In this document: positions 3,966 to 9,324 of the stretch, in pieces | Layout of the letters: each line of letters begins with the position of its first letter | How positions within the stretch are numbered: position 1 is the stretch's first letter | Origin: an uncultured Limnohabitans sp. | Lineage (GTDB): Bacteria; Pseudomonadota; Gammaproteobacteria; Burkholderiales; Burkholderiaceae_C | Length of the DNA: 11,830 nt | NCBI RefSeq assembly: GCF_937889215.1 | Contig: NZ_CALBEX010000156.1 | Span: forward strand, 1 to 11,830 | Direction of reading: 5' to 3' | Made by a program: the position numbers and the translations under genes | Notes under the pieces: model-generated | Seen by the model: only the letters and a program-made list of their open reading frames with translations | Database searches by the model: none | Told to the model about the DNA's origin: nothing

Positions 3966-3986
3966 TCCTTTCCCTCTCTGTTGCAC

Positions 3987-4844
3987 ATGAGCGCTCAGGC
4001 CACTTGTCGCGACACCGCGTTCGCGGGCCTGCCCGCTTGCGAATTGACGCTGCCGCAAGGCGACCGCCTACTGGTGGCGCTGCACGGTGCGCATGTGCTG
4101 TCTTGGGTGTCGGGCGGGCAAGAGCGCCTGTACCTCAGTCCCCAAAGCATTTTGGACGGCCAAGCCGCCATTCGCGGCGGTGTGCCCGTTTGCTTTCCGC
4201 AGTTCAACCAACGCGGCCCCATGGCCGACCGTTTGCCCAAACACGGCTTTGCCCGCAATGTGGCTTGGCAGGCCGATGCGACCGAATTGGGTGCCGAGCA
4301 CATCCGCTTCACGTTGCGCCTGAAGGACAACTTTCAGACCCGCGCCTGGTGGCCCCAAGCCTTTGCCTTGGCACTGCACATCGACCTGAGCCCGGGTGCC
4401 GTGCAACTGACGCTGGACGTGCACAACACAGACACCCAAGCGCTGGCGTTCTCTGGCGCACTGCACAGCTATTTGGCCGTGCCCGATGTGACGCAGGCCA
4501 CGCTGGAGGGCCTGGGCGGTCAGCCCGAGTGGGATTCACTCACCGACACCCATGCACAAGCGGCCGACGCGATCCGCTTTACAGCCGAGTTTGACCGCGT
4601 TTACGAAGCTTCAGCTAATCCGATTACGCTGAACCAGACGCTGCATATCAGCCAAAGCCCCAGCTGGGCCAACACCGTGGTCTGGAACCCCGCGCAAGAC
4701 CTTTGCAAGCGCCTGGCCGACATGCCCGGAGATGGCTGGCGGCACATGCTGTGCGTCGAAGCCGCCCAAGTCTACGAGCCCATCACCTTGCCTGCGGGTG
4801 GGCGCTGGGCGGGCTGGCAGCGCTTGCAAGTGCTGAAACCCTAA
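3987..4844 (+). CDS. D-hexose-6-phosphate mutarotase-like (aldose 1-epimerase family)
   Basis: The protein resembles the YeaD/YMR099c branch of the galactose-mutarotase superfamily, which interconverts alpha and beta anomers of hexose 6-phosphates. It has 285 residues from ATG 3987; an in-frame TTG two codons upstream is less likely. Signatures are HGAHVLSW near residues 33-40, AIRGGVPVCFPQF (61-73), LPKHGFAR (83-90), the presumed catalytic His160 in SGALHSYLAVPDV, and the presumed catalytic Glu258 in HMLCVEAAQV near the C-terminus. It lies between hisA and hisF in the same orientation with short gaps (21 and 32 bases), so it is probably cotranscribed. It has no known step in histidine synthesis. 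The fold family is clear; the exact substrate is inferred. Confidence 0.88.
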   Translation: MSAQATCRDTAFAGLPACELTLPQGDRLLVALHGAHVLSWVSGGQERLYLSPQSILDGQAAIRGGVPVCFPQFNQRGPMADRLPKHGFARNVAWQADATELGAEHIRFTLRLKDNFQTRAWWPQAFALALHIDLSPGAVQLTLDVHNTDTQALAFSGALHSYLAVPDVTQATLEGLGGQPEWDSLTDTHAQAADAIRFTAEFDRVYEASANPITLNQTLHISQSPSWANTVVWNPAQDLCKRLADMPGDGWRHMLCVEAAQVYEPITLPAGGRWAGWQRLQVLKP

Positions 4845-4876: not shown

Positions 4877-5677
<801 letters not shown>

Positions 5678-6025
5678 TGCGCTGAGCAACCGATCAGGCC
5701 AAAGCCAGGCATCTAGCGGGCAGCGCGTACTGCCCTCAGCTGCACTTGAGCTCATGTTGGCCAGCGAATGAAAAAAGACTTCAATAGAATTCTTTTTTTG
5801 TTTTTTTGAGTCTATAGTGGATATTTACTATCCGCTTGCGTACTTGGTCAAACAAGCGAGGGACTGCAAGGAAGGAGCATCGCGTCTCATGGCAAATTTA
5901 TACCTGCACAGAATCACAGAACATGAATCTGTAAGCCAAGGCGCAAGCGGCTTGCAGCCAATTTATCTGAAAGATGTATCGACACGGCCCGGATGTATCC
6001 ATCGGGTTTTGCGGTCTACATTACG
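5678..6025. other. AT-richer intergenic stretch between hisF and the cassette; no convincing gene
   Basis: The first part (to about 5765) has host-like composition and holds a perfect 6-bp hairpin (5718-5723 with 5730-5735) with no U-tract next to it. From about 5766 the base composition drops sharply. A run of A (5771-5776) can pair with one of two T-runs (5793-5799; 5801-5807), leaving a weak AT stem. A bulged 8-bp hairpin lies at 5940-5959. A GTG-started 70-codon frame (5817-6029) has no ribosome-binding site and no recognisable family; it is not called as a gene. AT-rich hexamers such as TATAGT at 5813 could act as promoter elements but lack a good -35 partner. The left edge of the accessory DNA probably lies here. 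Confidence 0.5.
5771..5807 (+). terminator. Possible weak terminator after hisF
   Basis: The segment AAAAAAGA (5771-5778) can pair with TCTTTTTT (5791-5798), and a second T-run follows at 5801-5807. This has the shape of an AT-rich stem with a U-tract, about 95 bases after the hisF stop. The stem is nearly all A-U, so it would be weak. It may equally be just a low-complexity junction sequence. Confidence 0.25.
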
Positions 6026-6031
6026 TTAGGC
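6025..6031 (+). other. 5' recombination junction of the gene cassette (GTTAGGC core)
   Basis: The heptamer GTTAGGC fits the integron core consensus GTTRRRY, in which the integrase cuts between the first G and T. By that rule the cassette begins at T6026. Joining the cassette's 3' terminal G6886 to T6026 recreates GTTAGGC, the exact reverse complement of the R'' box GCCTAAC at 6776-6782, as expected of a true cassette end. Upstream I see neither an attC partner box nor a divergent integrase gene, so this is either a secondary target or a degenerate attI/attC remnant. Confidence 0.75.
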
Positions 6032-6886
6032 TCTTTTCGAACACCCCGATGAGCGACAAACAAGCAGAAATAAAAGCGATCATCCAGCGAGTTGAAGAAA
6101 CACTGGAAACCGCGAAGCATGGTCTATCCGATCTACTTGATCCGTCAAGGACTCGCTGGAGAACCGGTCTGCGAAACTTGATCACCTTCGGTCGATCAGT
6201 CACTTTTGTCATTCAAAACCTTCGAGGCGTGCGCGACGTTGACTTTGATAGTTGGTACGAGCCACATCAAACTGCAATGAAGGCTGACCCGCTCATGCGG
6301 TACTTCGTTGATGCTCGTAACGAGCTTGAAAAACAAGGGAAGCTCAGCGTAGCAACAAGCACGCACATCAAGTCTTTTTCGTCTAGCGACATTAGAAAAT
6401 TTGGGCGTCCACCTGTTGGAGCACAAAGGTTCTTCATCGGAGACACCCTAGGCGGAACCGGCTGGGAGGTTGAGTTAGCTGATGGCACGACAGAAAAGTA
6501 CTATGTCGACCTTCCAGCTTCAATAGGCGAAGTCAAACAGCAGTTCACCAATTTTCCTGCTGCTAAGGCGCCCGAGTTGGCCGGGAAGAGCGTGGAAGAA
6601 CTATGCACGATGTACATCGACAAACTCCAGGAGTTGGTCACCCGGGCCAAGAGTCATTTCCTCGAAGAGCCGGAACAGCCGAAACCTGCGCGTAGCCGAT
6701 CGCATTTGCGAGTCGTCAAATGACGCTCAAAATATTCCGGTTCGGTGGCATCAACGTCATTGCCTTCGCTCCCCAGCCTAACTGGGGGTTCAACGCGGAC
6801 GCCAACATAGGCCATGCCTTCGGCATTTTCATGGCGTATGTCGGTACCCTCCGTACTTCGTGCTCCGGCGCCGGTTAACCAAGGCG
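6026..6886 (+). mobile_element. Integron-type gene cassette (one ORF plus attC)
   Basis: This 861-bp unit has the anatomy of a mobile integron cassette: a TTAGGC 5' end, a single ORF starting 23 bases in, a short gap, then a complete attC at the 3' end. The circular form would carry R'' GCCTAAC and R' GTTAGGC, perfectly complementary to each other. The cassette is oriented with the his operon, so its promoterless ORF could be read from operon transcription. Base composition is lower in GC than the his genes on both sides. No integrase is present in the window, so mobilisation would need one in trans. The cassette structure is seen directly; the secondary-site interpretation is inferred. Confidence 0.85.
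6049..6723 (+). CDS. Cassette-encoded protein of unknown function
   Basis: I do not recognise this 224-residue protein. ATG 6049 is chosen because it lies inside the cassette, 23 bases from the recombination junction; an in-frame ATG at 5974 would make the ORF cross the cassette boundary. The protein is soluble, with no signal peptide or membrane segment. The N-terminal half looks helical, with charged heptad-like stretches at residues 1-30 and LRNLITFGRSVTF at 41-53. MRYFVDARNELEKQG at 83-97 recalls the R-N helix of HEPN-like domains, but the usual downstream His is not obvious. The middle (about 100-160) looks beta-rich, with GWEVELADGTTEKYYVDLP. The C-terminus is a basic, proline-containing tail. 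A defence or toxin role is possible from the context of cassettes in general, but nothing here proves it. Confidence 0.8.
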   Translation: MSDKQAEIKAIIQRVEETLETAKHGLSDLLDPSRTRWRTGLRNLITFGRSVTFVIQNLRGVRDVDFDSWYEPHQTAMKADPLMRYFVDARNELEKQGKLSVATSTHIKSFSSSDIRKFGRPPVGAQRFFIGDTLGGTGWEVELADGTTEKYYVDLPASIGEVKQQFTNFPAAKAPELAGKSVEELCTMYIDKLQELVTRAKSHFLEEPEQPKPARSRSHLRVVK

Positions 6887-6892
6887 TTAGCT
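6776..6892 (+). other. attC recombination site (117 nt)
   Basis: The outer boxes are R'' GCCTAAC (6776-6782) and R' GTTAGCT (6886-6892). The inner arms pair as GGTT.AAC.CGG.CGCC: left arm 6787-6803 and right arm 6867-6880 form 14 base pairs interrupted by three single unpaired bases on the left (C6791, G6795, A6799), of which C6791 is in the position of a classic extrahelical base. The central region (6804-6866) contains a further imperfect inverted repeat, 6802-6816 against 6830-6844. This asymmetry is what lets integrases recognise the folded bottom strand. Crossover is expected between G6886 and T6887. Confidence 0.9.
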
Positions 6893-6932: not shown

Positions 6933-7352
6933 ATGTCGCATCGTCCACCGCTTGCGGTTGTACAGGCTCAATTGGACGCGTACAACGCGAAAGACATTGA
7001 GGCACTGCTGGCCACCTATTCGCCAAAAGCAGAGCAGTACGCTACAGGTGGAGAGTTGCTGGCGCAGGGGTATGAGCAGATGCGTCCGCGATTTCTTGCG
7101 CGGTTCGCTGAGCCCAACCTTCACGCCAGGCTGCTGTCTCGACAAGTGGTGGGAAACATGGTCGCTGACCTTGAGCTGATTGAACGCACATTTCCAGAGG
7201 GCGTCGGCTCCATCGAAATGTTGTGCGTCTACGAAGTGGTCGATGGCCGCATCCTGCGAGCTACTTTTGCTACGGGTGAGAAAAAGCTGTTTGCTGAATG
7301 CAGTACAGGTCGTCCTGATTCTGTTGCATCCCGGATGAAAGCCAAAAAATGA
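6933..7352 (+). CDS. SnoaL-like / NTF2-fold protein
   Basis: This 139-residue protein looks like the SnoaL-like/NTF2 superfamily, a cone-shaped alpha+beta fold found in polyketide cyclases, small isomerases and hydrolases, and many uncharacterised proteins. The N-terminal helix VVQAQLDAYNAKDIEALLATYSPKAEQY is the characteristic opening. It is followed by the pocket-strand region and a C-terminal EVVDGRILRATFATGEK strand pair. The start is supported by a good ribosome-binding site, AAGAGGA (6919-6925), seven bases before the ATG. The gene begins only 46 bases after the attC crossover point. Its stop overlaps the start of the next gene (ATGA, 7349-7352), so the two are translationally coupled. 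Substrate and activity cannot be told from the sequence. Confidence 0.82.
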   Translation: MSHRPPLAVVQAQLDAYNAKDIEALLATYSPKAEQYATGGELLAQGYEQMRPRFLARFAEPNLHARLLSRQVVGNMVADLELIERTFPEGVGSIEMLCVYEVVDGRILRATFATGEKKLFAECSTGRPDSVASRMKAKK

Positions 7353-7639
7353 TTCTCGAAATTGCTCAATTGCAAGTGCGCCAAGGACAAACCAAAGAGT
7401 TCGAGTCATCATTCGCGATTGCTCAAAAAATCATTGCCTCAATGCCGGGTTACTTGGGGCACGAGCTTCATAAATGTATTGAGCAAGATCACCATTACAT
7501 GTTGCTTGTGCGCTGGGAGTCGGTTGAACACCATGAAATTGGCTTTCGCAAATCATCCGAATACCAAGAGTGGCGCAAGCTACTTCACCATTTCTACGAC
7601 CCATTTCCCACTGTGCTGCACTACGCAGCAATTCATTGA
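7349..7639 (+). CDS. Antibiotic biosynthesis monooxygenase (ABM) fold protein
   Basis: This 96-residue single-domain protein fits the ABM family, dimeric ferredoxin-like alpha/beta barrels that include cofactor-independent quinol oxygenases, haem-degrading enzymes and stress proteins. It has the expected first strand (MILEIAQLQVRQGQTKEFE), a helix leading to MPGYLGHELHKC, the central strand YMLLVRWESVEHHEIGFRKS, and a helix with a C-terminal FYDPFPTVLHYAAI. It overlaps the SnoaL-like gene by four bases, which suggests the two products act together or are needed in fixed proportion. Despite the family name, no biosynthetic cluster is visible here. The role may be detoxification or quinone/redox chemistry; this is not determined. 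Confidence 0.85.
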   Translation: MILEIAQLQVRQGQTKEFESSFAIAQKIIASMPGYLGHELHKCIEQDHHYMLLVRWESVEHHEIGFRKSSEYQEWRKLLHHFYDPFPTVLHYAAIH

Positions 7640-7705
7640 GTTGCACACTCGATTTTTTTTGCAGCGCTACTTTCCGCGGGCGTTGGCCAATAAGGTAGAG
7701 ACCAC

Positions 7706-8107
7706 ATGACCATCCGAGGCGTGAGCCATCTCACTTTCATCGTGCGTGACCTTGAGCGCACCGCGGCGCTGTTTTGTCAGGCCTTGGGTGCTGTGGAGGT
7801 CTATGACAGCAAAGATCGTCAGTTTTCCTTGGCTCGTGAAAAGTTTTTCCTGCTCGGTGGTGTTTGGTTGGCGTTTATGCAGGGTGAGCCGCTTGGGCGT
7901 TCGTACCGCCATGTTGCGTTTGCCGTCGATGAGGATGAACTCGAGATTTATGAAAGCCGATTGATCGCCGCAGGTATGGAGGTGAAGCCCCCACGTCCGC
8001 GTGTGCAGGGAGAAGGGCGCTCTTTGTATTTCTACGATTTCGATAACAATCTGTTCGAGTTGCACACGGGTACCCTTCAAGAGCGACTTGAAAGGTATGC
8101 GCGGTGA
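7706..8107 (+). CDS. fosX: FosX-type fosfomycin resistance epoxide hydrolase
   Basis: The 133-residue protein belongs to the vicinal oxygen chelate (glyoxalase) superfamily and closely resembles FosX, which opens the fosfomycin epoxide with water using Mn2+. The expected metal ligands are His8 (GVSHLTF), His69 (YRHVAF) and Glu118 (NNLFELH). Glu45 in REKFFL aligns with Glu44 of Listeria FosX, the general base that separates FosX from the thiol-transferring FosA and FosB. The C-terminal half, RPRVQGEGRSLYFYDFDN, follows the FosX signature almost exactly. The gene sits 66 bases after the ABM gene and 30 bases before the DUF1272 gene. Composition is below the his genes, suggesting acquisition. 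Family assignment is strong; the resistance phenotype is inferred. Confidence 0.92.
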   Translation: MTIRGVSHLTFIVRDLERTAALFCQALGAVEVYDSKDRQFSLAREKFFLLGGVWLAFMQGEPLGRSYRHVAFAVDEDELEIYESRLIAAGMEVKPPRPRVQGEGRSLYFYDFDNNLFELHTGTLQERLERYAR

Positions 8108-8137
8108 TGGCCAACAAACTGAACAGAGGATGACAAC

Positions 8138-8386
8138 ATGCTTCAACTGCGCCCAAGCTGCGAATGCTGCGATAAAGACCTTCCCCCCGATTCCACACAA
8201 GCACGCATTTGCTCTTTTGAATGCACCTTCTGCGCGGCATGCGCAGAGAATGTGCTGGCGGGCAAGTGCCCCAACTGCGGGGGTGAACTGCTAATCCGTC
8301 CTCGTCGCCCTGCAGCCAAGTTGAGCAAGTTCCCTGCCTCCACCGAACGGGTCGTCAAGCAGCACGGCTGCCAAGAGACCGCATGA
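8138..8386 (+). CDS. DUF1272 Cys-rich small protein
   Basis: This 82-residue protein matches DUF1272, a short family of unknown function with zinc-ribbon-like cysteine spacing. Cysteines are at residues 8, 10, 11, 25, 29, 32, 35, 44 and 47, in CECCDKDLP, CSFECTFCAAC and KCPNCGGE, and a further Cys78 lies in a basic tail. Binding of one or two zinc ions is likely. The ATG is preceded by AGAGGA (8125-8130) at good spacing. It lies just downstream of fosX and 10 bases upstream of the GNAT gene, all in one direction. A nucleic-acid or protein-binding role is only a guess. Confidence 0.88.
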   Translation: MLQLRPSCECCDKDLPPDSTQARICSFECTFCAACAENVLAGKCPNCGGELLIRPRRPAAKLSKFPASTERVVKQHGCQETA

Positions 8387-8396
8387 ACAAGATTTG

Positions 8397-8861
8397 ATGC
8401 AGATCGCCACAGAACCCGCCAACCAGCCCGAGGTCTTGGCGCTCATCGAGCAGCTGGACGCTTATCAGAAGCCGCTCTATCCAGCAGAGAGTCACCACGG
8501 GATCGACATGGCTGCCCTGTCGCAGCCGAACGTCATTTTTGCGGTCGCTCGCGATCCGTCTGGCCAAGCGGTGGCTTGTGGGGCCATCGTCGTCGAGCCC
8601 GCTTATGGGGAGCTCAAAAGGATGTTCACGCTGCCCAGCCACCGGGGCAAAGGCATCGCCCGCTCGCTGATGCTATGGCTGGAAGCGCAGGCGCAGGCCC
8701 GTGGCTGCCATCTTTTCATGCTCGAAACGGGTTACCTTCAACCCGAAGCCATCGCGTTGTATGAGCGGCTTGGCTACAGCCGTCGAGGCCCGTTCGGCCC
8801 CTACACGGAAGACCCCAACAGCGTGTTCATGCACAAGTCAGCCGCTGGCCCGCTTCACTGA
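8397..8861 (+). CDS. GNAT family N-acetyltransferase
   Basis: GNAT enzymes transfer an acetyl group from acetyl-CoA to an amine. This 154-residue protein carries the motif A pyrophosphate-binding loop R83-G-K-G-I-A in MFTLPSHRGKGIARSLM, the preceding strand AVACGAIVVEPAYGELKRM, and the motif B segment AIALYERLGYSRRGPFG. The N-terminal LDAYQKPLYPAESHHGID is typical of a subgroup common in proteobacteria (recalled). ATG 8397 is chosen over the adjacent TTG at 8394. The start is 10 bases after the DUF1272 stop. The acceptor is unknown; the position after fosX makes an antibiotic or toxin substrate conceivable but unproven. Composition is closer to the host than that of the upstream accessory genes. 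Confidence 0.88.
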   Translation: MQIATEPANQPEVLALIEQLDAYQKPLYPAESHHGIDMAALSQPNVIFAVARDPSGQAVACGAIVVEPAYGELKRMFTLPSHRGKGIARSLMLWLEAQAQARGCHLFMLETGYLQPEAIALYERLGYSRRGPFGPYTEDPNSVFMHKSAAGPLH

Positions 8862-8882: not shown

Positions 8883-8916
8883 CATTGGGTGTGAACACAG
8901 GTTTCATGTCCCAATG
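8883..8916. promoter_or_regulatory. Inverted repeat upstream of hisI
   Basis: CATTGGG (8883-8889) and CCCAATG (8910-8916) form a perfect 7-bp inverted repeat around a 20-base spacer that begins with the near-palindrome TGTGAACACA (8890-8899). It ends 18 bases before the hisI ATG, in the only sizeable gap between GNAT and hisI, so it could be an operator or a 5'-leader stem. A possible -10-like TAAGAT follows at 8920. No T-run follows, so it is not a terminator. It could be chance. Confidence 0.35.
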
Positions 8917-8934
8917 TCTTAAGATCACTCCCCT

Positions 8935-9324
8935 ATGAACTGGCTCGATCAAATCAAATGGGACGACAAAGGCTTGGTGCCGGTCATCGCCCAAGAAAAA
9001 GACACTGGCGACGTGATGATGTTCGCCTGGATGAACCGCGAGGCTTTGCAAAAGACGGCGGAGCTCAAACGCGCGGTGTATTTCAGCCGTTCGCGCAACA
9101 AGCTGTGGTTCAAGGGCGAGGAGTCGGGCCATGTGCAAACAGTGCACGACATTCGCATCGATTGCGACAACGATGTGGTGTTGCTCAAAATTACCCAGCT
9201 GGGGCATGAGCCGGGCATCGCTTGCCACACGGGCCGCCACAGTTGCTTTTTCCAGAGTTTGCAGCCGGACGGCTGGCTGGCTGTGGACCCGGTCCTGAAG
9301 GACCCTGAAACCATTTACAAGTGA
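8935..9324 (+). CDS. hisI: Phosphoribosyl-AMP cyclohydrolase
   Basis: HisI opens the purine ring of PR-AMP to give ProFAR; it is zinc- and magnesium-dependent. The 129-residue protein has the metal-binding segment [12 protein letters not shown] and the cysteine pair in [11 protein letters not shown]. The start region [20 protein letters not shown] and FAWMNREAL are also typical. It is monofunctional, with HisE encoded separately just downstream; the TGA (9322-9324) overlaps a possible GTG start of hisE. No clear Shine-Dalgarno precedes the ATG. This is where the histidine operon resumes after the accessory block, so its expression may depend on read-through or on a promoter in 8862-8934. Confidence 0.97.

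Follow-up and report, generated by a model that had tools for sequence, protein, structure and literature searches.

Where do integron gene cassettes reside, and how do they come to be there? Integrons are described as one integrase gene, intI, with one adjoining attI, and cassettes found elsewhere are regarded as off-target insertions or leftovers. Published accounts, as far as their available text goes, fill in this picture in several ways. In Xanthomonas, an ancestral integron is placed at ilvD and has been progressively lost (PMC12444791); the same source says of CALINs, which are clusters of attC sites lacking an integrase, that they can be mobilised in trans, and routes by which integrase-less clusters may form are set out in PMC8618304. 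Insertion at a secondary site, attG, is named in PMC12901181 and PMC12444791. Nearly a third of intI genes are reported to be pseudogenes, and 20% of the genomes that bear intI carry more than one (PMC2426708). Repeated attI sites at fixed loci are not described in the available portions of these four papers, and titles and abstract openings, drawn mostly from outside the subscription literature, yielded no published report of dispersed attI sites.

Here, we describe a cassette in the histidine operon of a Limnohabitans genome. We propose that a sedentary chromosomal integron, now decayed, lies between hisF and hisI and that the cassette is its attI-proximal one; we put the probability of this reading at roughly 0.88.

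The hisF-hisI locus and its cassette

The window, by which we mean the whole 11,830-nucleotide stretch that was analysed, is contig C156 of a MAG of 2.72 Mb that is 82% complete and divided among 607 contigs. The closest named hisF loci include those of Limnohabitans sp. Bal53, L. parvus and L. planktonicus, and the genus comparison set comprised 90 Limnohabitans genomes. The features of the locus are as follows.

4877-5677, + strand: hisF, imidazole glycerol phosphate synthase subunit, left neighbour (Pfam His_biosynth, 4.3e-84; genus matches)
5761-5890, − strand: intI fossil, about the first 43 codons, directed toward hisF; start codon is the complement of 5888-5890
5813-5818, + strand: TATAGT, candidate −10 element of the cassette promoter (Pc), inside the intI remnant; conserved position, putative function
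5891-6031, + strand: attI region ending in the core GTTAGGC at 6025-6031 (profile R1); left limit set, by the probable position of the intI start
6026-6886, + strand: gene cassette, 861 bp, first integron position; junctions at both GTT cores
6049-6723, + strand: sole cassette ORF, 224 aa; precomputed label PF26900, function unassigned
6776-6892, + strand: attC site (homologous attCs and pairing test; missed by model R2)
6933-7352, + strand: SnoaL-like gene (Pfam SnoaL_2), right of attC
7349-7639, + strand: ABM-domain gene (Pfam), overlapping the SnoaL-like gene
7703-8861, + strand: block of FosX/FosE/FosI-family hydrolase, DUF1272 and GNAT genes (profile matches, comparison with relatives)
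8910-8934, + strand: short hisI leader, conserved in several inserted alleles
8935-9324, + strand: hisI, phosphoribosyl-AMP cyclohydrolase, right neighbour (Pfam PRA-CH)

A sequence-only reading of this DNA had placed an integron cassette inside the his operon, and the Pfam assignments of hisF on the left and hisI on the right agree with it. An aldose-1-epimerase-family gene (3981-4844) also lies within the operon, immediately 5' of hisF. Among the matches listed, 44 genomes have hisF and hisI on the same contig: the gap is 2-82 bp in 20 and 0.6-7.9 kb in 24 of them, and in 14 further genomes the two genes lie on separate contigs. Because the gaps are distributed in this way, inserted and empty alleles must both exist. 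The gap is exactly 2 bp, the empty site, in at least 11 genomes, and it is 19-44 bp in 7 additional ones. The sequence-only reading had anticipated an empty site reading ATTACGTTAGCTTCC; what is seen is an empty site at the level of the whole insertion (2 bp, at least 11 genomes). The insertion appears to be the derived state at this address, and the conserved leader at 8910-8934 is probably the right edge of the inserted stretch.

The limits of the cassette follow from its two cores. The 5' core GTTAGGC occupies 6025-6031, and cleavage behind its G makes 6026 the first position of the cassette; with the second core, GTTAGCT, at 6886-6892, the last position is 6886 and the length 861 bp. These are exactly the coordinates, core and single ORF that had been read from the letters alone. 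A relative of the cassette protein, 84% identical, is labelled Aeromonas rivipollensis. Scanned as 5974-6723, the protein has no match in Pfam, NCBIfam or PADLOC, and it is absent from the 40 loci compared. Its frame is open back into attI over that same interval, where translation from an ATG within the repeat of attI might produce a fused N-terminus, and a similar read-through into attI occurs in one representative each of loci C and E, which are described below. A scan of the window with Rfam returned nothing, and no tRNA was found.

What identifies the attC site? From left to right it consists of GCCTAAC, GTTCAACGCGGACGCC (6788-6803), GGCGCCGGTTAAC (6867-6879) and GTTAGCT, the outer two being the R'' and R' boxes, and its left arm carries extrahelical C, G and A. 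R'' pairs with the cassette's own first core at 7 of 7 positions, as in a circular cassette. Complementarity of the arms is by itself weak evidence: 30 shuffles of the window yielded 35 candidates, and 2 of these equalled its arm score of 11, as judged with a home-made scanner that is noisy and served for candidate collection only. Nor is the fold by itself significant (z −1.4; 21 of 200 shuffles were equally good). It is the homologous attCs and the pairing test, rather than arms or fold alone, that decide the matter and confirm the site. Homologous attCs, 76-85% identical, occur at six other Limnohabitans places, and plasmid pTB101 of Aquabacterium olei has four copies at E 0.01, two of them with the full 3' core; outside the cores their sequences are unlike, save for G011:C68 and G054:C25, which share theirs. 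Across nine sequences, 92.1% of 177 cells pair as predicted, versus 20-44% when partners are slid by 1-3 columns, a comparison biased toward the unslid version in that the structure came from the window itself. L148 and the plasmid copy at 10601, whose 3' arms are decayed or truncated, were omitted from this test. One pair is changed on both sides in four sequences.

The sequence-only reading had offered a covariance-model search as a check on the attC, and the result has to be read with the model in mind. R2, built from 12 other attCs of the genus, misses the window's attC (best overlapping match 11 bits, E 0.5). It also misses 3 of its own 12 training sites, each of 129 nt, and so is poor on long attCs; the window's attC is 117 nt long, and its left arm has one extrahelical base more than those of the 12 training attCs. 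Run on the whole genome of the window, R2 returns nothing, the window's attC included, and since it is blind to that site the empty answer proves little. The attC itself stands, on the homologues and the pairing test. A second supported attC is absent from the window, where a further scanner candidate, which overlaps the GNAT gene at its end, scores at shuffle level. We note that CCCCAG-CCTAA-CTGGGG (6771-6787) is a perfect inverted repeat around R'' and competes with R''-R' pairing in the predicted fold. We also note an attC of the window's type at G046:C62:74284-74399, 85% identical, with no attI match reported on its contig; it may belong to an attI-less cassette.

Beyond the cassette, the SnoaL-like gene has an 89% DNA match in L275. 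A 306-bp piece of a relative of this gene, starting inside the gene, lies downstream of an attI and an attC at locus B of G082, a weak hint that the SnoaL-like gene may be a second cassette or may have travelled as one. The FosX-family/DUF1272/GNAT block is common, whole or in part, to the hisF-hisI interval of several relatives, and its left edge at 7703 is identical in four of them. The glyoxalase-fold gene at 7706-8107 scores 193 bits against the NCBI cut-off of 170 for the FosX/FosE/FosI fosfomycin hydrolase family.

The attI site and the integrase fossil

What lies to the left of the cassette? Directly adjoining it is an attI, and beyond that an intI fossil; both had been overlooked in the sequence-only reading. 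R1, a profile of 32 attI sites that excludes the window, matches 5917-6031 with 108.7 bits (E 8e-34). The direct repeats GATGTATC lie at 5973 and 5992 and resemble the repeats of attI1. A DNA search with 5678-6032 finds matches in 39 of the 90 genus genomes, and the majority of these matches stop at the GTT core or no more than a few bases from it. In G066, G091 and G095, the same attI adjoins a long broken intI that runs toward hisF, with its 3' end abutting hisF. The R1 match and the alignment with the broken intI of these relatives thus identify the sequence up to 6031 as attI and 5761-5890 as the 5' end of intI.

The fossil carries a one-base gap, an in-frame stop and a truncation. Compared with the intI 5' ends of G066, G091, G095 and G022, window positions 5761-5894 are 73-76% identical in DNA, whereas the attI part (5895-6031) is 85-93% identical to the same four, as expected if intI decays and attI is retained. 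With the nearest relative, G070, the values are 92% for the intI part and 89% for attI, and that pair shows no difference. A tblastn search with the integrase P0121, which passes both integron integrase models, has no match in the window at E 0.01, and the fossil is recognised by alignment at the DNA level. By the same search, a broken intI is recognisable at the his locus in 16 of 19 genomes, the window being among the three without. The integron integrase family cut-off is passed in 2 of the 90 genomes, G091 and G066: the N-terminal piece of the former has two stops, and the latter passes only when neighbouring pieces are added, about 100 internal residues being missing. No intact intI was found in the 90 Limnohabitans genomes. 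The search for an intI elsewhere in the window's own genome, a step that the sequence-only reading had suggested, likewise found none above the family cut-off, leaving only the 5' fossil to the left of attI. Database (metagenome) proteins include uninterrupted IntI of 335 aa that are 94% identical over 90% of the G091 frame.

Two further elements overlap the start of intI. The candidate −10 element TATAGT lies 201-220 bp from the end of attI in the consensus of loci A, B, C and D (12, 16, 4 and 8 sites, respectively); a consensus promoter scan passes no promoter. An ORF of 46 codons (5889-6029) begins with an ATG (5889-5891) that overlaps the fossil start codon and ends at the TAG of the attI core. 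It has the same length and is open at 25 attI sites, and it could possibly serve as a leader for the translation of cassettes that have no ribosome site. There is no sign of selection on its protein product, pN/pS being 0.90 versus 0.80 and 0.84 in the other two frames.

Next to six intI genes of other families, all long or complete, R1 detects no attI (best 5.9 bits). The site type is hence lineage-specific, and for that reason its identity as attI rests on position, junction and cassette replacement. As in sedentary integrons, attI lies next to the start of intI, a cassette with its attC follows directly, and the address is conserved while the cassettes vary: attI occurs in a hisF-flanked locus in 19 of the 90 genomes, and the 15 strong sites of the his locus are followed by 13 different first cassettes. 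Only a broken 5' remnant of intI is present in the window, and we accordingly class the integron as decayed and not functional. We propose that an ancestor within Limnohabitans received an integron between hisF and hisI, with an original order of hisF, intI running toward hisF, attI with the cassette promoter inside the 5' end of intI, cassettes and hisI. In the window, intI would since have been reduced to about its first 43 codons, with the candidate promoter retained, and attI and the first cassette with its attC would be what remains. The cassette would have entered by IntI-mediated recombination of attI with attC, may be transcribed from the remnant promoter and is presumably immobile now, barring an integrase from outside. 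The sequence-only reading had offered two origins, and they fare differently. Insertion by a trans-acting integrase at a secondary site does not fit a 5' junction that is an attI with a broken intI at the same site; survival from a lost cassette array came close, the unit being rather the first cassette of a decayed integron.

attI loci across the genus and family

Is the his locus the only address of this attI? R1 matches occur at 76 places in 39 of the 90 Limnohabitans genomes, with up to six per genome, and 18 of the 33 genomes that have an attI above 60 bits have two or more. The presence of several attI at fixed loci of one genome thus holds for relatives and not for the genome of the window, which has one attI only. 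Loci were grouped by upstream flank, with both flanks compared for 20 sites outside the his locus. Flanking genes were read in one representative per locus, intI traces are tblastn matches of P0121 at E 0.01, and attC counts are of sites with an R2 match in the 4 kb downstream.

Locus A (his): 19 genomes; intI traces 16/19; attC 9/20
Locus B: 21 places in 19 genomes; intI traces 0/21; attC 11/21
Locus C: 5 places, recQ flank; intI traces 0/5; attC 1/5
Locus D: 8 places, efp and uvrC flank; intI traces 0/8; attC 6/8
Locus E: 5 places, sulfate permease flank; intI traces 4/5; attC 4/5
Cluster 5: 4 places; intI traces 4/4; attC 0/4
Cluster 6: 3 places, dapD flank; intI traces 3/3; attC 2/3

The remaining places are two pairs and seven singletons; one singleton, which has hisI downstream, is probably locus A. 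Grouped by tblastx over no more than their first 900 bp (E 1e-6, 40 residues or longer), the first cassettes at the 59 sites above 60 bits with at least 150 bp downstream fall into 52 groups, and the 19 sites of locus B alone have 18. One group occurs at both A and E within G042 (94%), and another at A in G051 and B in G073 (87%). R2 attC matches in 78 Limnohabitans loci lie downstream of attI on the same strand in 63 of 63 cases; 9 of these are training sites picked on that strand, and the independent count is 54 of 54. In 37 of the 80 named his loci, covering 769 kb, R2 has 0 matches (the attI-bearing L. planktonicus locus L153 lies outside the 37), and it matches 3 of 6 intI loci of other families.

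Similar sites extend beyond the genus. In a family set of 250 genomes, some of them Limnohabitans, R1 matches at E 0.01 are present in 34, which represent 26 of 141 genera; provided that the rough E-values are right, chance alone would account for about 2.5. A 24-base pattern of the attI core, with at most 2 mismatches, occurs in 27 of 399 genomes (18 of 141 genera); its reverse occurs in none of them. The 5.7-Mb genome G346 has eight attI-like matches (L321-L328) of 20-49 bits, six of which are followed by R2 attCs, and has no P0121-like integrase at E 1e-20. Only one of nine family genomes searched with P0121, G320 of a related genus, has an uninterrupted integrase (342 aa, L309). Its attI match lies 172 kb from this intact intI, with no intI trace adjoining and no R2 attC there, and R1 finds no attI beside the integrase itself. 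Just upstream of the integrase is a CTGT-N8-ACAG box, which resembles a LexA site. Together, these observations strongly suggest a lineage-specific attI in use, now or formerly, at several loci.

How were these loci loaded? One tentative answer, to which we give slightly less than an even chance, is a polytopic integron in Limnohabitans and perhaps in its wider family: promoter-attI docks at fixed loci, many of them without a local integrase but with their recognition sequence kept common, would be reloaded with different cassettes by one integrase acting in trans, which would come from another member of the lineage, a plasmid or a lost copy. The his site would be one such dock. We go no higher because some loci did once have an intI of their own, as the traces at locus E and in clusters 5 and 6 show.

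The strong rival is independent loss of local integrases: each attI locus would once have been a complete integron, each would have lost its own intI with nothing acting in trans, and the variety of cassettes would go back to the time when intI was there. We hold this, too, to be nearly an even proposition. It accounts for the traces at locus E (4/5), cluster 5 (4/4) and cluster 6 (3/3) besides the his locus, the leaders at C and D keep the region of the intI start codon, and decay of intI is common in print (nearly a third pseudogenes; PMC2426708, in its available text). It sits less easily with the lack of any tblastn trace at E 0.01 at the 21 B, 8 D and 5 C places, when B nevertheless has 18 first cassettes at 19 sites. 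Moreover, when different loci are compared across genomes, mean identity is about 0.80 over the 57 bp that precede the core but has fallen to about 0.56 over the 85-bp leader; within the same locus, the values are 0.85 and 0.75 (54 sites above 60 bits, excluding small clusters and weak sites). Finally, in seven genomes that carry an attI at B, D, E or cluster 5, a gap of 2 bp separates hisF from hisI.

Alternatively, the attI-like repeat might be a transposon end or a promoter repeat that precedes cassettes by chance. R1 finds no such site beside the six intI genes of other families or the intact intI of G320, several copies per genome resemble a dispersed repeat, and R2 detects no attC in the 4 kb downstream of 33 of the 66 sites that make up the seven named clusters, a count made with an insensitive model. 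We nonetheless judge this very improbable, for the similarity stops at the GTT core with mostly different cassettes beyond, the repeat adjoins intI starts, and R2 attCs follow it on the same strand in 63 of 63 and 26 of 27 cases. That a lone cassette was inserted in trans at a secondary, attG-like site where there was never an integron would suit a core operon, a genome without an integrase above the family cut-off and a window without a second supported attC, but is scarcely credible when the left junction is a full attI and not a bare GTT site, the same attI stands with intI fossils at the same place in relatives, and an intI 5' remnant is in the window.

If the proposal of trans-loaded docks is right, attI sites without an integrase, at fixed loci and with different cassettes in different species, would allow one genome to keep several expression docks even though intI is often absent, and would bear on the origin of integrase-less cassette clusters and on the frequent loss of intI. 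As a common genus of fresh water that has cultured strains, Limnohabitans allows the proposal to be tested directly. More generally, where a single cassette is met in a core operon, a lineage-specific attI should be looked for before the insertion is put down to off-target integration.

Comparison with described integron systems

How does the hisF-hisI locus compare with known systems, taking these as the available portions of the cited papers present them? The Xanthomonas ilvD integron (PMC12444791) is alike in its fixed core-gene address, in its progressive loss of activity and in the cassettes left behind, which differ between members; the Limnohabitans address, unlike that one, is hisF-hisI. 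At seven conserved loci, Xanthomonas also carries attC clusters that lack an integrase, and no attI is reported for these (PMC12444791), whereas the remote loci of Limnohabitans share one. As in CALINs (PMC8618304, PMC12444791), the cassette has no intact neighbouring intI. Unlike in CALINs, attI is retained together with a candidate promoter, and the window, with a single supported attC, lies below the threshold of at least two attC sites without an integrase (PMC12444791). Cassettes inserted at attG similarly lie in ordinary chromosome with no active integron near, but attG insertion needs a GTT site that is not attI, and the left junction here is an attI with an intI remnant. Finally, the Delta-attI gene cassettes (PMC12901181) resemble the Limnohabitans loci in having attI sequence displaced from its usual place. 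In those cassettes a partial attI replaces attC in mobile arrays; in Limnohabitans, attI and the promoter region head the cassettes at fixed loci.
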